DNA of 64,000 bases, from the NCBI RefSeq assembly GCF_006438785.1, contig NZ_RCZB01000001.1, positions 1,189,912 to 1,253,911 on the forward strand, given 5' to 3'. The translations under genes were made by a program, and so were the position numbers. Every line of letters starts with the position of its first letter. Position 1 is the first letter of the stretch. This DNA comes from Rhodanobacter glycinis. GTDB taxonomy: Bacteria > Pseudomonadota > Gammaproteobacteria > Xanthomonadales > Rhodanobacteraceae. Of this stretch, positions 5,511-63,718 are shown in pieces. The notes beneath the pieces were generated by a model. That model saw nothing but the letters and a program-made list of their open reading frames with translations. It searched no databases and had not been told where the DNA came from.

Positions 5511-6436
5511 TGCGCCAATAGTTCCAGCAGCAGCAGGTCTCCGCGCAACGGTCCACGCAGACTCTCACGAGTGCGATTGACCGCGCTGTACCAATGTCCG
5601 AGCCCCTCGACATCCATCGCACTGGCCAGCGGCCCGGTGCTTTCCCCCGAGCGCGCCTTGACCTCGTCGGCAACGGCCTGGGCGGCAAACCACAGCCGCT
5701 GTGCCGGTTCGTTGTCCAGCCAGCGCTTGACCACGTCCACCGGCTGACCTCGGCCCGCCGCCAACGCGGCCAGATCCTTGCGTACCTCCAGCCGCCGGTC
5801 GAGCGCCCCTTCCAGCGCCCACGCGCGAGCCAGCCCGGGATTGCCGCCGGCGGCAGTGAGCGCGGCTGCCGCATCGCGCACGCCTTCGGCCTGCAGCCAC
5901 GCGAGTGCGTCGACGGCAGCGGGCAAATGAAACTCGATTCGCTGGCAGCGGCTGCGGATGGTCTGCGGCAGGCGCCAGGGTGCATCGGCCAGCAGGAGCA
6001 GCATGGTCTGTGCAGACGGCTCTTCCAGCGTTTTCAGCAAGGCGTTGGCGGCGGCCGGATTCATCGCGTCGGCCGGATCGATGGTGGCCACCTGCCAACC
6101 GCCAAACTGGCTGCTCATGGCCAGTCGTGCCGACAGCTCGCGAATCTGATCGACCACGATCTCGCTGCGCTGCACGCCATCCTTGCGCAAGCCGAAGCTC
6201 AGCGAAATCACGTCGGGATGTGTGCCTGCGGCAACCAGCAGGCAACTGCGGCAATGGCCACAGGGATCGCCCCCTGCAGGGGCCTTGCACAACAGTCCCT
6301 GCATGAAGCGCTCGGCAAATGCGCGTTTGCCCAGACCTGCTGCCCCGCACAGCAACAAGGCGTGTGGCAGCGCATCGCGCTGGCGACGTGCCTGCAGCCG
6401 CGCCCAGTGTTCGGCATGCCAGGGCAACTGGTTCAT
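5501..6436 (-). CDS. holB: DNA polymerase III delta-prime subunit
   Basis: This is a clamp-loader subunit that works with DnaX and HolA to place the sliding clamp on DNA. The 311 residues include the AAA+ fold with a degenerate Walker A (GAAGLGKRAF, residues 31-40), a zinc module (Cys50, Cys59, Cys62, Cys65 with DPCGHCRSC), and the sensor stretch NALLKTLEEP. The ATG overlaps the tmk stop by four bases (ATGA), and its own end overlaps the PIG-L start. The tmk-holB pair is common in proteobacteria. Confidence 0.95.
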   Translation of the reverse strand: MNQLPWHAEHWARLQARRQRDALPHALLLCGAAGLGKRAFAERFMQGLLCKAPAGGDPCGHCRSCLLVAAGTHPDVISLSFGLRKDGVQRSEIVVDQIRELSARLAMSSQFGGWQVATIDPADAMNPAAANALLKTLEEPSAQTMLLLLADAPWRLPQTIRSRCQRIEFHLPAAVDALAWLQAEGVRDAAAALTAAGGNPGLARAWALEGALDRRLEVRKDLAALAAGRGQPVDVVKRWLDNEPAQRLWFAAQAVADEVKARSGESTGPLASAMDVEGLGHWYSAVNRTRESLRGPLRGDLLLLELLAQWR

Positions 6437-46650: not shown

Positions 46651-48120
46651 TCAGCTCGTCCGACCTCCCAGCTCCTTTTCCAGCGCACGGCGGAGATCGA
46701 TCAATGCAGCCGTGATTTCGCCCGGGTCGATCACCCCGTACCCGAACGTCACCGCCGGCTCGATCTCCCGCGTCATCGCATAATCCGCCGTCGACTCGGC
46801 ACCAGCCGCAAACCGCAGGGCTTTCGGCATGATCGCTGACGCCAGTTCGGGCTTGCGAATGCGAGCCGCCAGATGCAGGCCCGCCTCGGAGGGGATCGGT
46901 TCCATCCACTCGCCGAGCTCACGCCGCAAGCCATCGAGCAAAGCTTCACGCCGCTCGGCGTAGATCGGCCGCATGTGCCGGACGTGGCGCGCGAGGTGGC
47001 CATCGCGGATGAAAGCCGCCAGCACGGACTGGGTGATGGTGTCGCAATGCGAATCGGCGCAATGCTTGACGGTGATCAGGCCACTGCGGGCCCAAGCCGG
47101 CGCGACGACGAAGCCCTTGCGCAGTGAGGGAAACATGCTTTTGGAAAACGTGCCGATGTAGAACACCAGGGCGTCGCGGTCCAGCGTCTGCAACGCGTCG
47201 AGCGGGCGGCCGCCAAAGCGGAATTCGCCGTCGTAGTCGTCCTCGACGATCACCGCGTCGTGGGTGCGGGCGAAGTCGAGCAAGGCGGTGCGCCGGCGCA
47301 GTGACATCGCTACGCCGGTGGGCGACTGGTGCGAAGGAGTGACGCTGATGATGCGGACATCTTCTGGCAGGCGCTCGACACACAGCCCCTCGTCGTCCAC
47401 CGGCAGCGGCACCAGTTGCGCGCCGGCCGCTGCGAACGCCGCGCGAACCGGCGGATAGCCGGGTTCTTCCACCGCCACCTTGGTCTGCCCCGGCGTGACC
47501 AGCAGGCGGGCGACAAGGTCGAACGCCTGCTGCGCGCCGGAAGTCACGATCACGTCATCGGCGGTGCAGGTCACCGCGCGGGCAAAGGCAATGTGCCGAG
47601 CGATGGCTTCACGCAGCGCTGGAATACCCTGCGACGGTGCATAGGCGGACTGTTCGCGCGAGCTCCTGCGCAGCGTCTGCGCCATCAGCCGGCGCCAGAT
47701 GGCGTGCGGGAAATGGCGGTGATCGGGGATACCGAGCCGGAAGCTGCGTTCGGGCAGCATTCGGGGAGGCGAAGGTTGCAGGAACGGCGCGCGCCAGATC
47801 GGCGCAAAACGTGATTCCTTGATATCGACTTTTGATTTCGATGGCTTCGTCGCACGTCGTCGGGCGAGGTCGGCGACCACCGGCTTCGCACCCTTCTGCG
47901 GGATCAGATAGCCCTCGGCGACCAGCAGGTCGTAGGCAGTGACCACGGTGTTGCGAGCTACGCCGAGCGCCTCGGCGACCCGTCGCGTGGAAGGCAATGG
48001 CGAGTCCGCGGGCAATCGTCCGTCAAGGATTGCAGAGCGCAGCTGCTGGTGCAGTGCGTGGGTGAGCGTGCCCTGGCTGCGTGATGGAAGCACGACGGTA
48101 AAGGGGAAAACTGGTTCCAT
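46651..48120 (-). CDS. MocR-family regulator (GntR-aminotransferase), copy 1
   Basis: The 489-residue protein joins an N-terminal GntR winged helix (about 18-80, ILDGRLPADSPLPSTRRVAEALG) to a PLP-binding aminotransferase-like domain. Its PLP lysine lies in IGTFSKSMFP near 327, and it has VEDDYDGEFRFGG. MocR proteins bind PLP or an amino-compound ligand and regulate neighbouring genes, often divergent ones. Here the divergent gene is an MBL protein 110 bases away. ATG 48120 fits better than TTG 48147. Confidence 0.92.
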   Translation of the reverse strand: MEPVFPFTVVLPSRSQGTLTHALHQQLRSAILDGRLPADSPLPSTRRVAEALGVARNTVVTAYDLLVAEGYLIPQKGAKPVVADLARRRATKPSKSKVDIKESRFAPIWRAPFLQPSPPRMLPERSFRLGIPDHRHFPHAIWRRLMAQTLRRSSREQSAYAPSQGIPALREAIARHIAFARAVTCTADDVIVTSGAQQAFDLVARLLVTPGQTKVAVEEPGYPPVRAAFAAAGAQLVPLPVDDEGLCVERLPEDVRIISVTPSHQSPTGVAMSLRRRTALLDFARTHDAVIVEDDYDGEFRFGGRPLDALQTLDRDALVFYIGTFSKSMFPSLRKGFVVAPAWARSGLITVKHCADSHCDTITQSVLAAFIRDGHLARHVRHMRPIYAERREALLDGLRRELGEWMEPIPSEAGLHLAARIRKPELASAIMPKALRFAAGAESTADYAMTREIEPAVTFGYGVIDPGEITAALIDLRRALEKELGGRTS

Positions 48121-53498: not shown

Positions 53499-54131
53499 GT
53501 GCCCGAATTTCATCACTGGTTTGCTTTCGCCCTGGTTGCACTCGGCCTCGTGCTGACGCCCGGCCCGAACATGCTTTACCTGGTTTCCCGCTCGATTTCC
53601 CAGGGCCGCAAGGCGGGGCTGGTTTCGCTCGTGGGCGTAGCGCTCGGCTTTATCGTCTACATGTTGTTCGCCGCCTTCGGCATTACCGCTTTGCTGATGA
53701 CCGTGCCGCTGGCTTATGACGCCTTGCGCTTCGCTGGCGCGGTGTATCTGTTGTATCTCGCCTGGCAGGCGGTCAAGCCCGGTGGGCGGTCGCCGTTCCA
53801 GGTGCGCAACCTGCCGGCCGATAGCCCGAAGCAGCTCGTAGTCATGGGCTTCCTGACCAATCTTCTGAATCCGAAGGCGGCGGTGTTGTACCTGTCGTTG
53901 TTGCCGCAATTCATCAGTCCAGAGCGCGGCAATGTGCTTGGCCAGTCGCTGGTGCTCGGATTTACCCAGATCACAATCAGCCTGTCGGTCAACGCAGTGA
54001 TCGCGATCATGGCCGGCACCATCGCCGGCTTCCTCGCCGGTCGCCCGGTATGGCTCGCCGTACAGCGCTGGATGATGGGTACGGTGCTGGCGGGACTTGC
54101 GGTGCGGATGGCGACCGAAGCCCGGCGCTGA
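53499..54131 (+). CDS. LysE/RhtB family amino acid exporter
   Basis: The 210-residue inner-membrane exporter has six predicted helices and the family start LVALGLVLTPGPNMLYLVSRSI, with TNLLNPKAAVLY in the middle. It exports amino acids or homoserine-type compounds; the substrate cannot be told. The start is GTG 53499 with GGAG nine bases upstream. A MocR regulator gene lies 425 bases further on. Confidence 0.9.
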   Translation: MPEFHHWFAFALVALGLVLTPGPNMLYLVSRSISQGRKAGLVSLVGVALGFIVYMLFAAFGITALLMTVPLAYDALRFAGAVYLLYLAWQAVKPGGRSPFQVRNLPADSPKQLVVMGFLTNLLNPKAAVLYLSLLPQFISPERGNVLGQSLVLGFTQITISLSVNAVIAIMAGTIAGFLAGRPVWLAVQRWMMGTVLAGLAVRMATEARR

Positions 54132-54556: not shown

Positions 54557-56038
54557 ATGAGTAGTCTGTTCGAAATTGCTTTTGACCCCCCGCCTAAAGG
54601 GAGCCGCCGATCTGCGGAATCCGTCTGTGCGCAGTTGCGCGCCGCGATCCTTGATGGTCGGTTGGTTCCCGGATCCAAACTCCCGGGGCAGCGTCAGTCG
54701 GCTGTCTTTTTCGGTGTATCGAGAAACACGGTTGCCCGGGCTTATGCGAGGCTGGCAGTCGAGGGGTTGGTACGGTCCCGGCAAGGGTCGGGAACGTATG
54801 TGGCGTCGAAGCAGCGTCATCCGCCGCGCGGGCTCCTCTCGACGCAGCTAACGCCCGACCCGCGTCTGAATTCGCTGTGGTCGCGGCCAGAACTTGCCCG
54901 CGCACTCAACTTCTGGCACGACAGTCAGCGTACAAAGGCGCCGAGGGCTGCTGCATCCCTGGATTTTCGGCCCGCGCTGGTTGATCCGCGATTGTTCCCT
55001 TTCGAAATATTTCGTCGGGTCAGTGCCAAGCAGCTCCGGCGCATGGAATTGAAGCCTCCTGCATTCAAGAGTCCGCAAGGCAATCAGGGGCATTTCCCAC
55101 TGAGGACGGCCATCGCGACGCACATCGGCATCTCGCGCGCGGTCGTGTGCGAGCCCAACGATGTGCTGGTTACCGCCGGCGCGCAGCAGGCTTTCGATAT
55201 TCTCGCCCGTGTACTGGTAACTCCCGGGGTTACGACGGTCGCCATTGAAGATCCAGGCTACCCCCCGATGCGTGCTGCATTTCTCGCCGCCGGCGCCAAG
55301 GTCGTGCCCGTACCGGTCGACGCGCAGGGGCTGGTGGTCGACGCCCTGCCGATTCCCGTACACGTTGTCTGCGTATGTCCTTCACACCAATTTCCGATCG
55401 GCGTATCCATGTCCGTGCAGCGGCGGGCGGCACTGCTCAGCTTTGCTCGCAAGCATGGGGCGGTCATCGTTGAGGACGATTACGACGGAGAATTCCGCTA
55501 CGACGGCACTCCCCTTCAGGCGCTACGGTCCACGGCGACCGCGGATGACGTGTTCTACGTCGGCACCTTCTCCAAGTGCATGCTCCCCGCATTGCGACTG
55601 GGATTCATAGTGGCACCCCAATGGGCCATGCCGGCGCTGATCACAGCGAAGAACTGTCTCGATTGGCATTGCCCGACGTTGACGCAAATGGCGGTTGCCC
55701 GTTTCATCGCGGATGGGCATCTGGCGCGGCACGTGCGAAAGCTTCGTGGCGTATACAGGAAGCGACGGGACCTCATAGAGGAGATACTCCGGTCGGACTT
55801 TTCGGGAGAACTGTCGCCGATGCAGTCGCATTACGGGATGCATGTGGCGGCGTTCTCGACGCTACCCAAACGCCTCGAACGTGTCACCGCCAGATTGCTG
55901 GAGTTGAACGTGCATTTGCATTCGTTCGAGCGCTATTTTTTCGGCGCACCAACATCGGAAGGCCTGGTTTTTGGCTACGGGGCCGCTGACCTCAAGGATA
56001 TCGAGCAAGGCCTGAAGGCGTTACGGGACGTGCTCTAG
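54557..56038 (+). CDS. MocR-family regulator, copy 2
   Basis: The 493-residue protein is closely related to copy 1: both share TPGxTxVAxEDPGYPPMRAAF-like blocks and IVEDDYDGEFR. The GntR domain (about 20-90, DGRLVPGSKLPGQRQSAVFFG) precedes the aminotransferase-like domain, with the PLP lysine in VGTFSKCMLP. ATG 54557 (MSSLFEIAF) is used; a GTG at 54536 is possible. It converges with a small secreted protein gene. Its target cannot be assigned. Confidence 0.9.
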   Translation: MSSLFEIAFDPPPKGSRRSAESVCAQLRAAILDGRLVPGSKLPGQRQSAVFFGVSRNTVARAYARLAVEGLVRSRQGSGTYVASKQRHPPRGLLSTQLTPDPRLNSLWSRPELARALNFWHDSQRTKAPRAAASLDFRPALVDPRLFPFEIFRRVSAKQLRRMELKPPAFKSPQGNQGHFPLRTAIATHIGISRAVVCEPNDVLVTAGAQQAFDILARVLVTPGVTTVAIEDPGYPPMRAAFLAAGAKVVPVPVDAQGLVVDALPIPVHVVCVCPSHQFPIGVSMSVQRRAALLSFARKHGAVIVEDDYDGEFRYDGTPLQALRSTATADDVFYVGTFSKCMLPALRLGFIVAPQWAMPALITAKNCLDWHCPTLTQMAVARFIADGHLARHVRKLRGVYRKRRDLIEEILRSDFSGELSPMQSHYGMHVAAFSTLPKRLERVTARLLELNVHLHSFERYFFGAPTSEGLVFGYGAADLKDIEQGLKALRDVL

Positions 56039-56165: not shown

Positions 56166-56717
56166 CTAGCGGGTGAAGGTCATGACCCAGTTCGTCTCCC
56201 AGGTTTTACCTCCATCGACGGAGAACGCTTGCTCGAAGCGGGACGAATTTGGCTTGATGTCGGAGAAGCCGTTTCGCACCATGATACGTCGTCCCTTGAA
56301 GGTATCCGGGCCATAGAATTCTCCGCGCCCGTCCTTGAACTCCCCGATCATGGGGGCGCCGTCCAGCATGCCGACGCTGCTATTTGCCCAGTTCAGATTC
56401 CACTGATGGGCCTGCGGGTTGTACAGGCGAAGTCCAGCGCCTTCGATATGGCCGGCCGGCCCCTCCACCTCGAGTTCGAAGAGGCTGGCGCGACCGTTCC
56501 AAACCTTGCGAACGGCTGACATGCCGTCGTACTCGGTCCAGGTTGTTGAGCCCGTCAGCGGATGCACAAGCCGGGACACGTGGGTCTTCCACGTACCGAA
56601 ATTGAAGTCGAAGTCATGCTGGCCATCCCGTTCCGCCGCCTTTATCGGCCCGACCGCCGCGAAGAGGATCGCCGTCGATAAAACCGAGATTGCCCATGTT
56701 CTTTCACGCTTGATCAT
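56166..56717 (-). CDS. Secreted DUF1579-like protein, copy A
   Basis: The 183-residue protein has a signal peptide (about 1-27, ending IKA) and the pattern RDGQHDFDFNFGTWKTHVSR, then GRASLFELEVEG and FKDGRGEFYG, ending GGKTWETNW. I take it as a DUF1579-like family, with a likely beta-barrel or lipocalin-type fold. It is one of three paralogues here and is most like copy C. The function is unknown. ATG at 56717; 332 bases lie before copy B. Confidence 0.82.
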   Translation of the reverse strand: MIKRERTWAISVLSTAILFAAVGPIKAAERDGQHDFDFNFGTWKTHVSRLVHPLTGSTTWTEYDGMSAVRKVWNGRASLFELEVEGPAGHIEGAGLRLYNPQAHQWNLNWANSSVGMLDGAPMIGEFKDGRGEFYGPDTFKGRRIMVRNGFSDIKPNSSRFEQAFSVDGGKTWETNWVMTFTR

Positions 56718-57049
56718 AGAGGTCCACCGAAGTGTTGAATAAACCAGGTTGTATTGCCATGAATGGATCGACTGCGGATCGCATTATTTCAATTGCACCC
56801 AGTTTTATAGACGCCACTTCCCAGAAAAGCATGCGGGCCACTTTGACGGGAAAGTCAGCGCTTTGGATAACTGGCTGCACTAACGAGACCGGGCTTTCCA
56901 GCGTGGCTTATGCCCGCGTCGTCATCGAAGCCTCCCAACGTCGCGTCCAGCGAAGTGGACCACCCTAAATTTCTCCGACTGGCCCTGCTGGCGCTGCGGG
57001 TTTTCCCTAAAGTCTTGCCCTAGGGTTTGTTGCTTATGTGGAGAACGCG
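56718..57049. other. Intergenic region between divergent copies A and B
   Basis: About 332 bases. It must contain promoters for both paralogues. It has a short CCCTAAAgtcttgcCCTAGGG-like near-palindrome near 57006-57026, just before copy B; I cannot assign it. Confidence 0.45.
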
Positions 57050-57601
57050 ATGATGTGGAGACAGCTGTTACGTGGCGTCATGATGGCAGGCGTTCTTGCT
57101 TGCTCATCCTTGAACGCAGGAGCCGCGTCGCCTCGCGACGGCTCACATGACTTCGACTTTGTTCGCGGGGCTTGGCATACCCATGTCACGCAAGTGCTCG
57201 ACCCGTTCGATGGCGGGACCCACACGGTGACCATGGACGGTACCAAGACAGTGCGGCCGATTTGGGGTGGCCGCGCGTGGCTTGAGGAAATCGAGGCCGA
57301 CGGCCCAAGTGGACATTGGGAAGGCGCCTCGCTGTTCGTCTACAACTCAAAAGCCGGGCAATGGAGCCAGACTTACATCGACAGCGCTTCGGGAGAGATT
57401 GAGGCCCCGACCATCGGAGGCTTCAAAGACGGCCGGGGCGAGCTGTTCGGCACGACTGTTTATAAAGGTCGCACGGTACTGGTACGCGGAGTTTGGTCAG
57501 ACATCAGGACCGACTCTGATCGCTATGAGATTTCTTACTCCCGCGACGGCGGCCTGACATGGGCAACCGCGTTCAAAGCCTATTTGACACGGCTCAAGTG
57601 A
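57050..57601 (+). CDS. Secreted DUF1579-like protein, copy B
   Basis: The 183-residue paralogue has a signal peptide ending near LNAGAA and then DGSHDFDFVRGAWHTHVTQ, IGGFKDGRGELFG and RDGGLTWATAF. It is more diverged than copies A and C and lies on the opposite strand. ATG 57050 is used because GGAG lies six bases before it; GTG 57038 would add four residues. Confidence 0.82.
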   Translation: MMWRQLLRGVMMAGVLACSSLNAGAASPRDGSHDFDFVRGAWHTHVTQVLDPFDGGTHTVTMDGTKTVRPIWGGRAWLEEIEADGPSGHWEGASLFVYNSKAGQWSQTYIDSASGEIEAPTIGGFKDGRGELFGTTVYKGRTVLVRGVWSDIRTDSDRYEISYSRDGGLTWATAFKAYLTRLK

Positions 57602-57993
57602 TCGCATCCGGGCTCCCGCTCAGGCGACGCGGGAACCGCTGCTCTCTGAGGAGATTGATCGGGAGCCGTGCAGATGAACCGGTCGGTGTGGCCGCGAATC
57701 GACCTGTCAAACACGGTGACAGTGTGCGGGTCGGCGGGATTGGTCAGGATCGCACTCTCGCTTCCGAACTTGAATCCTGCTGCTTCGACTTCGCGGCATA
57801 CTACCGAAGGCTCAATGCGGTGCAAGGTGTCGGTCACGCCCGCAGGCGAGTGCCTGGTGGCGATGTGGTCGAGCACGATTTGAACCCCACCCGGCTTGAG
57901 TGCCGTACACATCGCCTTTTCGCATGTCGCAAACTCCTCGAATGCGCCTGCCAAGCGGCGCGACATGTGAACCAGAAAATAGATTTCGATCCG
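57580..57993 (-). pseudogene. Class I methyltransferase fragment
   Basis: The minus-strand frame reads ALKPGGVQIVLDHI, then DTLHRIEPSVVCREVEAAGF and NPADPHTVTVFDRSIRGHTD. These match the C-terminal half of a periplasmic-type SAM methyltransferase family. The SAM-binding N-terminal half is absent, an in-frame TGA lies at about 57996, and its end overlaps copy B. It is a broken gene, possibly left by the event that placed the paralogues here. Confidence 0.6.
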
Positions 57994-58024
57994 TCAGGAT
58001 CCTGTTCGACATGCGCGCTGAAGC

Positions 58025-58639
58025 TCAGCCCGCATGACTGGCTTCACCCTTGATCCGTGTGTCCGTCGCAATCCAGTTCACCTCCCAGGTCTTGCCCCCA
58101 TCCGCGGAGAAGGCCTGTTCGAATCGGTACACGTCGGCCGTGACCTTCGAGATGACGAATCGAACCAGGATGTCGCGGCCGTCCAGTGTTTCCTTGTCGT
58201 AAAACTCGCCACGTCCGTTCTTGAACCCGCCGACCGTGGGCACGCCCAATCCACCGCCCCTGCTGCTGGCAACGTTGAGGCTCCACTGGCGCGACGCGGG
58301 GTCGTACAGGCGCAGGGACAGCAGTTCGATATGGCCTGCCCGACCATCCACTTCGAGCTCGACCAGGTTGGCGCGGCCGTTCCAGATCTTGCGGATGACG
58401 CTGGTGCCGTCGTACTCGAGCCAGACGGTGGAACCGGTCAAGGGGTGCTGGAGGCGTGAGACGTGGGTTTTCCAGTTGCCGATCTCGAAATCGAAATCGT
58501 GTTGCCCATCTCGATTCGCAGGGCTGCGACTTGTTGCCGGTGCAGCGGCTGGCTGGCTGGCGAATCCCTGCAGCGGCAGCGTACCGGCGACCAGGATCGA
58601 GGCCACCAGGCCGGCACGAATGGATCTGAATGCATTCAT
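58025..58639 (-). CDS. Secreted DUF1579-like protein, copy C
   Basis: The 204-residue protein has a signal peptide (about 1-28, GFASQPAAA), a Pro/Ala spacer, then the same pattern as copy A: RDGQHDFDFEIGNWKTHVSR, VWLEYDGTSVIRKIWNGRA and FKNGRGEFYD. It ends 11 bases after the outer-membrane barrel gene, so both may share a transcript. A and C clearly come from a recent duplication. Function is unknown. Confidence 0.83.
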   Translation of the reverse strand: MNAFRSIRAGLVASILVAGTLPLQGFASQPAAAPATSRSPANRDGQHDFDFEIGNWKTHVSRLQHPLTGSTVWLEYDGTSVIRKIWNGRANLVELEVDGRAGHIELLSLRLYDPASRQWSLNVASSRGGGLGVPTVGGFKNGRGEFYDKETLDGRDILVRFVISKVTADVYRFEQAFSADGGKTWEVNWIATDTRIKGEASHAG

Positions 58640-58649
58640 CGCAATTCCC

Positions 58650-59678
58650 TCAGTAGACGACGTTGAGCGCCACGGCCGGCGTGACCGTGGTCGCCGTGTT
58701 GTGACCCCCGGTGATCACCCGAACGCCAAAAATCGCACCGACGTTCGCGTTCCAGCTGTACTCCACCGCCGGTGCAAAACCGAACGCCTTGCTGGGGCCA
58801 GAGTCCAGGTGGATTCTCGGTGGAGGGGGCACGCTGCTCGAATCCAGCCCCTGCACGTAGCCGGTCACCGAAGTAGTACGGCTGTGGCTGTAGGTCAGGT
58901 CGAGCGCCAGCACCCAGCTGCGCGTCAGGCTGTATTCCCAGGCCAGGTCGGCAAAGAAGGAACTTCCGGGCCTGGCCGTTCCGCGAAATCCCGGACCGGT
59001 TCCGTAGACACTGACGTCGGCAACATTCGCGTGGCTGGAAAACGCCTGCGACACATCGAAGCGCACGCGCAGGATGCGGCCGTTCGCCAACCAGAAGTAG
59101 GTCTGGGTGTTGACCTGCAACGTGGTTACATGGGCGCCGCTGCCGAGCCCATCGGCCGGCCGGTCGCCGAGTCGATCGTATTTCCCGGTGGGAAAGGTTT
59201 CCTGCACCTCGAAGGAAACCGTCGGCATCAAGCTGCCTTCATGAAACTGCGTGAGCTGGTACTGCGCGAGAAAGGTGAAATCGCCCAGCCCCACGTGCGA
59301 GCTGTGCGGGCCGCCGCTCATCGTGTTGTAGCCGAACACCGGAATCACCCCGACCGTGAGTCGATTGGCGAGGCCATAGAGCACGTACGTGCGCGAACCG
59401 TAGCTATGCGAATGCGCGCTGGAGATGTCGTACAGATACGGCTCGACCAGGACATGTCCCGGCGGCAACGTTCCTGCCGAATTCGCCAGCAGGGGGCCAG
59501 TCCACCAGGCATCGTCCAGCGATTGGTTGTCCGCGGATGCCGTCGCCGACGCGCTCAACGGGGCGGCCGCGACGGCTTGGGCGAGTGCCGGAACAGGGTT
59601 CAGAAAACTTCCCGCCGTGCACATCAGCAGGGCGCAGATCACCCGTCGAAACGGGACCATCTTCGGGACTGACCGCAT
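58650..59678 (-). CDS. Outer-membrane beta-barrel protein
   Basis: The 342-residue protein has a signal peptide (about 8-35, ICALLMCTAGSFLNPVPALA) and alternating hydrophobic strands, with GLGDFTFLAQYQL and an aromatic C-terminal strand (ALNVVY). It resembles the phenol-degradation meta-pathway (MetA) type transporters. ATG 59678 (MRSVPKM) is used; ATG 59729 is possible. It is divergent from MocR copy 3 (114 bases), so that regulator may control it. Confidence 0.75.
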   Translation of the reverse strand: MRSVPKMVPFRRVICALLMCTAGSFLNPVPALAQAVAAAPLSASATASADNQSLDDAWWTGPLLANSAGTLPPGHVLVEPYLYDISSAHSHSYGSRTYVLYGLANRLTVGVIPVFGYNTMSGGPHSSHVGLGDFTFLAQYQLTQFHEGSLMPTVSFEVQETFPTGKYDRLGDRPADGLGSGAHVTTLQVNTQTYFWLANGRILRVRFDVSQAFSSHANVADVSVYGTGPGFRGTARPGSSFFADLAWEYSLTRSWVLALDLTYSHSRTTSVTGYVQGLDSSSVPPPPRIHLDSGPSKAFGFAPAVEYSWNANVGAIFGVRVITGGHNTATTVTPAVALNVVY

Positions 59679-59743
59679 CACTCGTTTTTCCTGCGCATCA
59701 CATGGGATGAGCGAGAAGCTAAGCTGCATAGTGGTCTACTTAA

Positions 59744-59783
59744 ATATCCACTTTGACGAGATACGATATAGCCACTTTGCGAG
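59744..59783. promoter_or_regulatory. Direct repeats in the MocR copy 3 / barrel intergenic region
   Basis: ATATCCACTTTGACGAG (59744-59760) and ATAGCCACTTTGCGAG (59768-59783) are direct repeats 24 bases apart, start to start. A third, inverted, partial copy (CATAGTGG near 59727) lies beside them. Direct repeats near the promoter are typical of MocR targets, so this is a candidate operator for autoregulation. Confidence 0.65.
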
Positions 59784-59791
59784 GTACCAAG

Positions 59792-61273
59792 ATGCAACGC
59801 ATCTCCGCCAGTTTCCTGCCGCCAATCCCGCTCGACACCGACAGCGGGACACCAATGCATCGCCAACTGTCCGACTGGTTCCGGCACGCGATCGTCGACG
59901 GCCAGTTGCGGCCGGGCCAGCGCGTGCCATCAAGCAGAAGTCTTGCCGGCGAGCTGAAGATTTCCCGAATACCGGTTCTGGGCGCGTATGAACAGCTGTA
60001 CGCCGAAGGCTATCTGGAAACTTTCGTAGGCGCCGGTACGTGCGTCGCCCGATCGATCCCCGAAGAGACAGTGCAGCCGGCGAACATGAAGTCGCGACAT
60101 GCACCGCTGCAGATCCCCGAGCACAGGGTTGCGCGCAGGATCTCGCAGCGGGCGGCGTTGATGCGCGAGCCGGCACAGTCATGGTTGGACAGCCAGGGTG
60201 CCTTTCGAATCGGTCTGCCTGCACTCGAGCACTTCCCGACGGGTGCGTGGTCGAAGCTGGTCAACCGGCATGCGCGAAAGCCGTCCATCGACATGATGGT
60301 CTACGGCGATCCGATGGGACACCCGCCATTGCGCGAAGCGATCGCGGAGTACCTGAATACCGTGCGCGCCGTGCGCTGCGATGCCTCGCAGATCCTGATG
60401 ACAACCGGATCGCAACAGGGCTTGCAGATTTGCGCGCATGTGCTGCTGGATCCCGGGGAACGCGCATGGGTGGAGGAGCCGGGCTACCCCGGCGCGCGTC
60501 AGGCGCTGATGACCGTGGGCGCCAAACTCATTCCGGTGCCCGTCGATCACGAAGGCCTCAACGTGGCCGAAGGCATTCGCCGTGGCCGCAGCGCACGCGC
60601 CGTCTATGTCACGCCGTCACACCAGTTTCCGTTGGGCACAGCCATGAGTGCGGCGCGACGCATGCAGCTGCTGAACTGGGCGATGCGCAGCGGGGCCTGG
60701 ATCATCGAGGACGACTACGACAGCGAGTTCCGTTTCGGCGGCGGCCCGATCGCCTCGCTGCAGGGGCTGGACGCTGATGGCAGGGTCATCTATGTCGGCA
60801 CCTTCAGCAAGGTCGTGTTTCCGGCGCTACGCCTCGGTTACGTGGTGGTGCCGAAGGATCTGGTACCCGCCTTCTTCGATGCACGCAACGCGGTCGACAC
60901 GTTTTCTTCCACGCTGTACCAGGCCGTCATGAACGACTTCATCCGCGAGGGACATTTTGCGCGTCACATCCGCCGCATGCGGATGCTCTATCTCGAACGG
61001 CGAACGGCGCTGCTGGAAGCGATCCACAAGTGCATGGGAGACCGGCTTGAAGTCGTCGGCGCGGAGGCCGGCATGCAGCTGACGGCGTTGCTGCCGCCCG
61101 GCGTTGACGACGTGGCGGTATCGATAAAGGCGGGCCATCACGGCGTTTCAGCCAGGCCGTTGTCCCTTTGCTATGCAAACCCGCCAGGCAGGGGCGGTCT
61201 GATCCTCGGCTACAGCGGCGCCAGTGTGCGCGAGATCCAGGACGGTGTGCGCAAGCTCAGGATGTGTATCTGA
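59792..61273 (+). CDS. MocR-family regulator, copy 3
   Basis: The 493-residue protein has a GntR domain (about 20-90, QLRPGQRVPSSRSLAGELKISR) and a PLP domain with IIEDDYDSEFRFGG and VGTFSKVVFPALRLGY. It differs more from copies 1 and 2 than they do from each other. ATG 59792 has GAGG seven bases upstream. It is divergent from the barrel gene and likely controls it and the linked copy C. Confidence 0.9.
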   Translation: MQRISASFLPPIPLDTDSGTPMHRQLSDWFRHAIVDGQLRPGQRVPSSRSLAGELKISRIPVLGAYEQLYAEGYLETFVGAGTCVARSIPEETVQPANMKSRHAPLQIPEHRVARRISQRAALMREPAQSWLDSQGAFRIGLPALEHFPTGAWSKLVNRHARKPSIDMMVYGDPMGHPPLREAIAEYLNTVRAVRCDASQILMTTGSQQGLQICAHVLLDPGERAWVEEPGYPGARQALMTVGAKLIPVPVDHEGLNVAEGIRRGRSARAVYVTPSHQFPLGTAMSAARRMQLLNWAMRSGAWIIEDDYDSEFRFGGGPIASLQGLDADGRVIYVGTFSKVVFPALRLGYVVVPKDLVPAFFDARNAVDTFSSTLYQAVMNDFIREGHFARHIRRMRMLYLERRTALLEAIHKCMGDRLEVVGAEAGMQLTALLPPGVDDVAVSIKAGHHGVSARPLSLCYANPPGRGGLILGYSGASVREIQDGVRKLRMCI

Positions 61274-61331: not shown

Positions 61332-61793
61332 TTACAGAAATTTCCGGTACACGATGAACCCCGACTTCCCGGCCAGCTTGTCGTAGAGCTGCATGGCTAC
61401 CGTATTCGTCTCGTGGGTTTGCCAGTAGACGCGCGGAGAACCGGCCTGCCGCGCGCACTCGTATACCGCGTTGATCAGTGCGCGGCCAACTCCCATGCCT
61501 CTGGCTGCCTCGACCGTAAACAGATCCTGCATATAGCAGCTCGGCCCGAGCTGGATGGTGCTGCGGTGATAGAGGAAGTGCGCCAGCCCGAGCAGATTGC
61601 CGTCGTGCTCGGCCACGATTGCGTGCATCGGTTCGTCGACGTCGAAGAACCGGGACCAGGTCGTCTGGATGATTTCATCCGGCAGCGCGGTCGGTCCGCT
61701 GCGGCCGTAGAAGGCGTTGTAGCCGTCCCAGAGCAGCCTCCATGAAGGAAAGTCTGCCCTCTGCACCGGGCGGATCACGACGGGCTGGTTCAT
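61332..61793 (-). CDS. GNAT-family acetyltransferase
   Basis: The 153-residue protein has the acetyl-CoA loop LFTVEAARGMGVGRALINAV and ends with the GKSGFIVYRKFL typical of GNAT enzymes. The acceptor is unknown. ATG 61793 has AGGA eight bases upstream. It lies 50 bases after the ABC gene on the same strand. Confidence 0.88.
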   Translation of the reverse strand: MNQPVVIRPVQRADFPSWRLLWDGYNAFYGRSGPTALPDEIIQTTWSRFFDVDEPMHAIVAEHDGNLLGLAHFLYHRSTIQLGPSCYMQDLFTVEAARGMGVGRALINAVYECARQAGSPRVYWQTHETNTVAMQLYDKLAGKSGFIVYRKFL

Positions 61794-61843
61794 GCGATTG
61801 TCCTGGGATTTTCCATGGTCATTGCTCAGCGACGGTCGCGATC

Positions 61844-63718
61844 TCATGCCGCCGCGTCTTCCGCCGCCACGAAGCCACCGGTCTGCCGCTTCCACAAGCG
61901 CGCATACAGGCCCTCTTGCGCGATCAGTTCGGCGTGCGTGCCAGTTTCCACGATATGGCCCTTGTCCAGCACCACCAGTCGGTCCATTCGGGCGATGGTG
62001 GACAGGCGGTGCGCGATCGCGATCACGGTCTTGCCTTGCATCAGGATGTCGAGGCTGTCCTGGATCGCCGCTTCGGCTTCGGAGTCGAGTGCGGAAGTGG
62101 CTTCGTCGAGCACAAGGATCGGTGCGTCTTTCAGCAGCACGCGGGCGATCGCGATGCGTTGGCGCTGGCCTCCACTGAGCTTCACGCCGCGCTCGCCGAC
62201 CAGCGCCTCGTAGCCGATGCGGCCTTCGCCGTCGACCAGTTGTGGAATGAATTCGTCGGCGCGCGCCTTGCGCACGGCCTCGAGAATCTGCGCCTCGCTG
62301 GCGTCCGGACGGCCGTATAGAAGATTGTCGCGGATTGAACGATGCAGCAGCGAGGTGTCCTGAGTCACCACGCCGATCTGCGAGCGCAGGCTCTCCTGCG
62401 TAACTTGTGCGATGTCCTGGCCGTCGATCAGGATGCGCCCGTCTTCGAGGTCGTACAGCCGCAGCAGCACGTTGACCAGGGTGGACTTGCCGGCGCCGGA
62501 CGGGCCGACCACACCGATCTTCTCGCCCGCGCGCACGGCCAGGTCAAGCCCGGCGATCACCCCGCCCTGCTTGCCGTAATGGAAATGAATGTGCTCGAAG
62601 CGCACCGCGCCGTTGGTCACTTCCAGCGGCATCGCGCCTTCATGATCCTGCACCGCGCGCGGTTGCGAGATCGTGGTGATGCCGTCCTGCACGGTGCCGA
62701 CGTCCTCGAAGATGCCGTTGACCACCCACATGATCCAGCCGGACATGTTGTTGATGCGGATCACCAGTCCGGTCGACAGCGCAATCGCGCCGACCGTCAC
62801 CCGGCCCTCGCTCCACAGCCACAGTGCCAGCGCCGAGGTGCCGACGATCAGGAAGCCGTTGAGCGTGGTGATGCTGGCGTCCATCGCGGTGGTGACGCGA
62901 GTCATCCAGCGCAGCTTGTCGGTCTGCTCGGCCATTGCGTCGGCCACGTAGGCTTCTTCGCGATGGGTATGCGCAAACAGTTTCAGGGTCAGCACATTGC
63001 TGTAGCCGTCAACGATGCGGCCCATCAGCTTCGAGCGCGCCTCCGAAGCCTTCCACGAACGCTGCTTGATGCGCGGAATGAAGAACGCCAACAGGCCGAC
63101 ATACGCGAACACCCACACGACCAGCGGCGCCGCCAGCCAGAAATCCGCCTTGGCAAACAGCACGATCGCGCTGCCGGTGTAGATGGTGACGTACCAGATC
63201 GCATCGACAATCTGTACCGCCGAGGCGCGCAGCGAACCGCCAGTCTGCATGATGCGGTTGGCGATGCGCCCGGCGTAGTCGTTCTGGAAGAAGCCCAGAC
63301 TCTGACGGATCACGTAGCGATGGTTCTGCCAGCGGATGCGGTTGGTCAGGCTGGGCACGATCGCCTGGTTCACCAGCAGATCGTGCAGGCTGCCCAGCAC
63401 CGGTCGTGCGATCAACGCCACGAAACCCATCCACAGCAGGGTGCGCCCGTGCTCGTGGAAGAACGCCGCACCTGGCGCGCCCTTGGCCATGTCGACGATG
63501 CTGCCGATGAAGCCGAACAGCGACACCTCGACGATCGCCACCGCAAAACCCACCACGATCGCCGCGGCAAACACCGGCCACACCTGGCGCAGGTAGAACG
63601 CGTAGAAGCGCCACACCGACTGCGGCGGCATGCTGTCGACCGGTTCCTTGAACGCGTCGATGAGGGATTCGAACCAGCGGAAGATCATCAGGTGTTCCGG
63701 GCTTGCGTGTGTCGTCAT
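61844..63718 (-). CDS. ABC exporter, fused permease-ATPase
   Basis: The 624-residue half-transporter has six membrane helices (within about 40-340) and a nucleotide-binding domain with Walker A GPSGAGKST, signature LSGGQRQ, Walker B ILVLDEATSALD and the H-loop IAHRLST. It resembles MsbA-type exporters of lipids, peptides or drugs; the substrate is unknown. It works as a homodimer. ATG 63718 is used, and the upstream open frame is not needed. Confidence 0.92.
   Translation of the reverse strand: MTTHASPEHLMIFRWFESLIDAFKEPVDSMPPQSVWRFYAFYLRQVWPVFAAAIVVGFAVAIVEVSLFGFIGSIVDMAKGAPGAAFFHEHGRTLLWMGFVALIARPVLGSLHDLLVNQAIVPSLTNRIRWQNHRYVIRQSLGFFQNDYAGRIANRIMQTGGSLRASAVQIVDAIWYVTIYTGSAIVLFAKADFWLAAPLVVWVFAYVGLLAFFIPRIKQRSWKASEARSKLMGRIVDGYSNVLTLKLFAHTHREEAYVADAMAEQTDKLRWMTRVTTAMDASITTLNGFLIVGTSALALWLWSEGRVTVGAIALSTGLVIRINNMSGWIMWVVNGIFEDVGTVQDGITTISQPRAVQDHEGAMPLEVTNGAVRFEHIHFHYGKQGGVIAGLDLAVRAGEKIGVVGPSGAGKSTLVNVLLRLYDLEDGRILIDGQDIAQVTQESLRSQIGVVTQDTSLLHRSIRDNLLYGRPDASEAQILEAVRKARADEFIPQLVDGEGRIGYEALVGERGVKLSGGQRQRIAIARVLLKDAPILVLDEATSALDSEAEAAIQDSLDILMQGKTVIAIAHRLSTIARMDRLVVLDKGHIVETGTHAELIAQEGLYARLWKRQTGGFVAAEDAAA

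Follow-up and report, generated by a model that had tools for sequence, protein, structure and literature searches.

The window analysed here is a 64,000 bp stretch of the Rhodanobacter glycinis genome (GCF_006438785.1, contig NZ_RCZB01000001.1, positions 1,189,912 to 1,253,911). It contains a gene cluster in which a MocR-type regulator gene, MocR3, diverges from an operon encoding a predicted outer-membrane barrel and a predicted secreted protein, C; two paralogues of C, A and B, lie on the far side of that operon. Regulation of the barrel-C operon by MocR3 is well supported in silico, and a predicted operator lies in the divergent spacer. The main features are as follows.

56166-56717, minus strand: A, an open reading frame (ORF), paralogue of C (60% identity)
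57038-57601, plus strand: B, an ORF, paralogue of C with a weak DUF1579 match under the cut-off
58025-58639, minus strand: C, predicted calycin-type protein whose N-terminus resembles a signal peptide; starts 10 bp past the barrel gene
58650-59681, or as an ORF up to the ATG at 59729, minus strand: predicted outer-membrane barrel of the COG4313/Phenol_MetA_deg type
59725-59780, minus strand: predicted three-box operator with a pair of AGTGG boxes at 24-bp spacing and a CCACT box in inverted orientation
59792-61273, plus strand: MocR3, GntR helix-turn-helix plus fold-type-I aminotransferase domain, PdxR-type MocR regulator

The regulator, the barrel and the paralogues

MocR3 is a PdxR-type MocR regulator by its domain content (Pfam GntR, E 8e-12; Aminotran_1_2, E 5e-27), its match to the NCBIfam PdxR model (NF052282, 425 bits with a cut-off of 320) and its PDB relatives (7pq9, E 9e-63; GabR 4n0b, E 1e-61). 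The PdxR model is broad, since MocR2 (54558-56038) also passes it with 393 bits. The FSK lysine of MocR3, which we take to be the lysine that binds pyridoxal 5'-phosphate (PLP), aligns with the FSK of 7pq9. As in other MocR systems the divergent promoter of MocR3 holds a repeated-box operator, here a predicted one, and the only three-box site in the genome is this one at MocR3/barrel, so that PLP synthesis or salvage genes, the targets of a PdxR regulon proper, are not found behind such a site in this genome. MocR3 probably starts at the ATG at 59792, because the operator overlaps the TTG upstream of it.

The barrel protein scores 35.7 bits (cut-off 22) against PF13557, the family also called COG4313 (PMC4493636). 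Its model (mean pLDDT, the predicted local distance difference test score, 75) is nearest to FapF (5o65), which Foldseek ranks first, and to the COG4313 channel Pput2725 (4rl8); the N-terminus, which in such 12-stranded channels forms a segment in the lumen, is modelled with low confidence, and overall the model is close to 4rl8. A PDB profile search with the barrel alignment returned nothing at E 1.

The three ORFs A, B and C lie where the preliminary description of this DNA had placed them, with B on the plus strand and A and C on the minus strand, and the motifs HDFDF, GxW, GRGE and DGG.TW are invariant across them. C does sit directly behind the barrel gene, ten bases separating the barrel stop from the C start, and MocR3 is divergent from this operon. 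That A and C are "very similar" was too strong; they are paralogues, and their identity is only 60%. B is 42% identical to C. A search of the genome with C returns A (E 5e-65), B (3e-40) and, some 0.86 Mb away, a fourth copy (2e-36), and the first two values mark A, B and C as paralogues rather than chance likenesses. Other Rhodanobacter assemblies hold relatives of C with 91% and 82% identity. From a reading of their N-termini, all three proteins are predicted to be secreted.

The hallmark of calycins and lipocalins is an antiparallel beta barrel whose N-terminal turn is followed by GxW. The model of C is a ten-strand antiparallel barrel with a mean pLDDT of at least 90 in each ten-residue block from 51 to 190, and G54 and W56 are invariant across the 69 sequences of our alignment (the three window proteins plus 66 chosen from fetched loci). 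Calycins head the lists of both fold-comparison programs, and by its model the fold of C is calycin-type; the paralogues form one sequence family with one modelled fold, against the concern that their folds might be unrelated. First in both Foldseek and VIA-align are the spirocyclases OlmO (7sfn; Z 18.5, root-mean-square deviation 2.1 over 141 residues) and OssO (7sfp; Z 17.4, 2.5 over 143), which differ from C in having only 13-14% identity to it and in belonging to Streptomyces polyketide clusters (PMC6490886). Nitrobindins are among the next matches, and they and other calycins share the ten-strand barrel at a Z of about 14.5, with 6-12% identity in the nitrobindin-type rows.

Pfam and NCBIfam scans of A, B and C gave no curated family above cut-off, nor did an NCBIfam scan of all 69 aligned sequences give a family. 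DUF1579 (PF07617) matches 17 of the 69 at E below 0.01 (best 3e-7), but its gathering score is not reached by the window proteins (A and C unmatched, B with 22.6 against 25.2 bits); four of nine plasmid relatives (31-38% identity) are annotated DUF1579. Adjacent C-family matches fall in single open frames that fit both at G007:C29:86854-87819, G042:C7:68877-69908 and G052:C1:2200979-2202052, which suggests double-domain calycin proteins. A PDB profile search with the alignment also gave kelch and sialidase matches over short query stretches, which we read as matches to beta hairpins and Asp-box-like motifs; since C is modelled as a calycin, we do not take them as signs of kinship. We note that in Ruegeria pomeroyi (L158 4944-7538) a DUF1579 gene and a gene for 4-aminobutyrate transaminase are near neighbours, two genes apart, a link to amines by neighbourhood only.

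The predicted operator and its distribution

The direct repeats noted earlier between the barrel gene and MocR3 are present (ATATCCACTTTG/ATAGCCACTTTG, at a 24-bp period), and they form one part of a larger predicted operator, which adds an inverted box to the two direct ones spaced 24 bp apart. Its consensus in target orientation over 24 loci, the window included, is aAGTGGttATatCg.Atc..a.caaAGTGG.TATT...g...aCCACT (capitals, 90% or more; flanks omitted). Two direct boxes plus one inverted box is the commonest MocR operator layout (PMC5320631). A matrix made from 12 other loci gives the window operator 71.8 bits and the runner-up in the 64 kb -3.5; a second matrix, for which 8 loci outside the family were used, gives 62.6 and -1.4. 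A looser two-box pattern with up to three mismatches occurs once in the genome, and its reversed control twice. Neither of the two spacers yielded a promoter in a sigma-70 scan.

Among 100 relatives, the R. glycinis genome included, the three-box pattern (up to two mismatches) is present in all 14 with a MocR3 orthologue of at least 60% identity and in none of the other 86, one of which (G037) has a 44% MocR3 homologue. The reversed pattern matches once in the 100. Sixteen three-box sites were found there, and one of them (G034:C3, two mismatches) is away from the module. In 24 genomes chosen for a MocR3 orthologue or for a locus of interest there are 28 sites, one or two per genome (G350 has none), and no match to the reversed pattern. 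MocR3/barrel or a C-family gene adjoins 26 of the 28, every one of the 23 exact sites among them; the two exceptions (L222, L224) each carry two mismatches and lie in 3-kb stretches without a module gene.

Contig searches gave 177 relatives of C, the best 80 of which were kept as loci. Their 844,172 bases contain 20 sites of at least 10 bits, every one 13-190 bp before a C-family or barrel tblastn match on the same strand; 12 of these trained the matrix and eight (L010, L014, L022, L024, L027, L075, L078, L082) did not. Several precede C-family genes in loci that have no MocR gene: strong sites in an acidobacterial assembly (L075/L197) and in Dyella (L078/L203 and L082/L221), and weak ones in L022, L024 and L027. 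A MocR3 orthologue is encoded elsewhere in five of these six genomes. Nine of ten queried genomes have one, of 66-73% identity; eight of the nine adjoin a barrel gene and the operator, and that of G350 has neither within the stretch covered. L151 has a site on either side of the regulator gene: one precedes a cluster of A-like, barrel, C and methyltransferase genes, the other a second C-family gene. The operator therefore tracks the predicted secreted calycins as well as the barrel. The preliminary description called MocR3 a private regulator; the shared operator does tie it to the module, but copies of that operator also stand before C-family genes away from MocR. In Dyella monticola (L203 1687-3046) three tandem C-family genes lie behind one operator, with no MocR gene in the locus.

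These counts overlap (L005, L006, L022, L024, L027, L058, L075, L078 and L082, for example, are among both the 80 loci and the whole-genome searches) and the three-box pattern was written from operators already seen, so the 14-to-86 split and the reversed patterns are the cleaner controls. In silico, the predicted operator is found in Acidobacteria and Rhodanobacteraceae, the family to which both Rhodanobacter and Dyella belong, almost only before MocR3/barrel or C-family genes in the searched genomes. A C-family gene is present anywhere in 13 of the 14 MocR3-positive genomes (G037, at 44%, excluded from these) and in 24 of the 86 others (Fisher p 5e-6, kinship ignored); within the genus the figures are 10 of 10 and 9 of 35, with kinship again ignored.

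Conservation of the gene arrangement

A MocR gene lies divergently upstream within 3.5 kb in 27 of the 80 C-family loci, and in 22 of the 61 that have about 6 kb of upstream DNA (those in which the match begins at 6001). At E 1e-8 there are 29 upstream-divergent MocR hits in the 80 loci and one in any other position; the E 1e-4 search adds a downstream 63-residue MocR fragment in L065 (E 1.3e-8), just outside the stricter cut. By their record titles, the 27 linked loci include Acidobacteria, Gammaproteobacteria, a Sphingomonas, a Kofleriaceae and a Chryseolinea, although MocR identity to MocR3 drops as low as 30-40% among them. With the shared operator, this is the co-occurrence in other genomes that the earlier proposal of a module called for. 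Other recurrent genes in the 80 loci encode NIPSNAP (10), barrel (8), pyridoxamine-oxidase-like (6), methyltransferase (5) and GNAT (4) proteins, and all eight barrel-bearing loci also have MocR.

Approached from the regulator, the picture shifts towards the barrel. In all 14 Rhodanobacteraceae orthologues of at least 60% identity among the 100 relatives (the window's own, L005 for G039, and 12 further loci) a barrel gene is divergent from MocR3, directly or one gene in, and in eight of the 14 a C-family gene is in the same cluster, the calycins being variable additions. MocR matches of 43-44% (L153, L155) have neither barrel nor operator, and a C-family gene adjoins that of L155. A MocR-linked set of envelope genes thus recurs much as first proposed, but the constant partner of MocR3 is the barrel and not the trio of A, B and C. 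Barrel matches at E 1e-12 occur in 4 of 249 genomes of the phylum, R. glycinis included, too few for context statistics. The MocR neighbours of lower identity have related repeat patterns; six MocR genes about 40% identical to MocR3 that lie beside C-family genes (L028, L038, L067, L076, L083, L084) have different but related spacer repeats, perhaps those of a second regulon of the same family.

Possible function

Our preferred interpretation, to which we give a probability of roughly 60%, is a small MocR regulon through which the cell envelope handles a compound that is small and probably hydrophobic, possibly an amine or an aldehyde. MocR3 would carry PLP and sense an amine or aldehyde-reactive compound (GabR, for example, senses 4-aminobutyrate, GABA), and this sensing would alter its hold on the operator. 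The COG4313-type channel would pass the hydrophobic compound across the outer membrane, as proposed for that family (PMC4493636), and periplasmic calycins would bind it or convert it chemically. Where loci also encode GNAT, methyltransferase, NIPSNAP or pyridoxamine-oxidase-like proteins, these might process the compound further. COG4313 channels have been implicated in the uptake of hydrophobic molecules, SphA in that of sphingosine (PMC4493636). A more specific version is tentative: capture at the envelope would be gated by PLP chemistry, with MocR sensing a hydrophobic amine or aldehyde and switching on the channel and interchangeable periplasmic calycins that bind or convert it, the calycin being the exchangeable specificity part. 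The change in calycin number and kind from strain to strain is what would be expected of a ligand-specific part.

Several observations weigh against the regulon interpretation. No divergent upstream MocR gene is present within 3.5 kb in 53 of the 80 C-family loci (39 of the 61 with about 6 kb upstream), and some loci have other regulator genes within about 6 kb: an AraC-type (Cupin_6) gene in L049, L060, L067, L078, L082 and L084 (one member scanned), and a small HxlR-like gene, so labelled from reading of its sequence, in L015, L056, L059, L060 and L061. The calycin family is therefore wider than this regulon. The 27 MocR neighbours span 30 to 93% identity to MocR3, and the operator is found only at about 50% or more; MocR paralogues of about 40% have related sites of up to 20.4 bits, so the weak sites may be theirs. 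The genome of L075 has a site yet no MocR3 orthologue at E 1e-80, whereas the MocR3 of G350 has no operator site. The putative site between A and B (below) is without a third box. Finally, the structures nearest to C differ in function (spirocyclases, nitrobindin, a phycobiliprotein lyase and an anti-sigma factor), so that the fold does not fix the role of C.

Of the alternatives, the one that survives best, though we consider it unlikely, is that MocR3 is an ordinary vitamin B6 regulator of the PdxR/PdxW type and that the envelope genes aid uptake of B6 vitamers or guard against PLP side products. MocR3 is above the cut-off of the PdxR model, six of the 80 loci (five of them with MocR) have a pyridoxamine-oxidase-like gene, and PdxR/PdxW regulons contain PdxO and RimI acetyltransferases (PMC5320631). 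In R. glycinis, however, neither the three-box site at MocR3/barrel nor the two-box site between A and B is at any B6 gene, and the window genes scanned include none recognised as serving PLP synthesis or salvage.

Somewhat less likely again is a part in acid or amino-acid responses, with the barrel passing amino acids or amines (Glu/GABA, Asp/Ala) for PLP-dependent decarboxylase-antiporter systems in low-pH life. Plasmid-borne relatives of the barrel (L156 4914-5885, L162 4905-5888, L157 4893-5882, L170 4932-5882) follow PLP-decarboxylase genes in loci that also carry permease, antiporter or asparaginase genes, which hints at a porin role in decarboxylase systems for these distant relatives. 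Four of the eight plasmid loci viewed (of 19 records), H10, H11, H12 and H14, have a decarboxylase gene together with antiporter, permease or asparaginase genes; their barrels are only 30-31% identical to ours. H15, H16, H25 and H28 are without such genes, as are ten neighbouring ORFs scanned in two genomes, and there is no decarboxylase among ten scanned proteins from C-family loci. The COG4313 channel Pput2725, moreover, is held unlikely as a channel for hydrophilic molecules (PMC4493636).

We regard it as improbable that the barrel is a FapF-like exporter that carries the calycins, or some other polypeptide, to the surface. Foldseek ranks FapF first (E 3e-11) and the barrel and C genes share one operon, but the COG4313 channel is a nearly equal match (E 1.5e-10), six of the 12 MocR3 loci with a barrel have no C-family gene in the stretch covered, and folded barrels would be unlikely substrates for such a pore. 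A chance neighbourhood with no functional link, suggested by the variable stretch in which A and B sit, is very hard to reconcile with the 29 upstream-divergent MocR hits against one elsewhere and with the operator census (80 loci, 24 genomes and the 14-to-86 split).

The regulator kind and the operator layout are already known. PdxR, PdxW, PdxQ and other MocR regulons (Suvorova and Rodionov 2016, PMC5320631) are alike in their GntR-aminotransferase regulator and TGG core, and in having an acetyltransferase and PdxO among their targets. An outer-membrane channel and secreted calycins, the targets predicted here, set this case apart: when its main text was searched for words, that survey gave no "outer membrane", "secreted" or "hypothetical". 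Acidobacteria, in which the operator occurs here, are not in Table 1 of that paper. The barrel resembles the COG4313 channels Pput2725, TcpY and SphA (PMC4493636) in passing the Pfam cut-off and in its modelled closeness to 4rl8, and differs from other COG4313 channels in being divergent to a MocR gene, with calycin genes following in some loci. A, B and C differ from DUF1579 as their scores show, although some of their relatives match it. Searches of the open-access literature gave no paper for MocR with DUF1579 or for DUF1579, and nothing on this module for MocR with other terms. As far as that literature covered shows, this pairing of regulator and targets has not been described, nor has any MocR regulon devoted to the cell envelope. 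The 2016 survey assigned a role to 38 of 86 MocR groups and left most without one (PMC5320631). Because each genome has only one or two operators, the site is long and conserved and the target set is compact, the signal should be readily testable, and a predicted secreted calycin family that recurs in many soil bacteria gains a regulatory context.

The variable left side and neighbouring genes

Three further features belong to the locus.

56814-56843, minus strand: putative degenerate two-box operator in the A/B spacer, without a third box
57670-57993, minus strand: 3' remnant of a methyltransferase gene, the full gene being longer in related operons
61332-61895, minus strand: GNAT acetyltransferase gene, accessory, converging on MocR3 (Pfam Acetyltransf_1, 1e-15)

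Collinearity of the window with L005, the nearest relative, is interrupted between 49564 and 58020: the 8.4 kb there, which carries A, B, MocR2 and LysE-type and HxlR-type genes, is present in the window and absent from L005. The G+C content of these 8.4 kb is 61.1%, against 64.6% in the rest of the window. L006 and L142 rejoin the window near 41.2 kb, so the region to the left of the module is a variable stretch. A and B had been proposed as module members, and they are paralogues of C, but both lie in this stretch. Their link to MocR3 is plausible from a shared repeat: AAGTGG-N18-AAGTGG occurs exactly at only two places in the 4.28 Mb, the A/B spacer and the MocR3 operator. The reversed pattern occurs five times, from which about 0.0004 would be expected per 320 bp, the repeat having been spotted before the pattern was defined. 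The A/B site is not among the window's 12 best operator-matrix sites.

The methyltransferase remnant lies between B and C, whereas in L006 a full methyltransferase gene follows C; the remnant matches the L006 protein at 61% over 110 columns (tblastn, E 1e-39) and its DNA at 82% over 245 bp (57674-57918). The GNAT gene adjoins MocR3 in L005, L006/L154 and L142 too, and the L142 comparison indicates that its true start is probably near 61793. MocR2 is preceded on its own strand by a LysE-type translocator gene (53499-54131), and PdxQ regulons are reported to include LysE/YggA genes (PMC5320631). The genome has nine MocR-type genes with E below 1e-60 to MocR3, and the three MocR-type genes of the window (46858-48075, 54558-56038 and 59792-61273) all lie within 15 kb.

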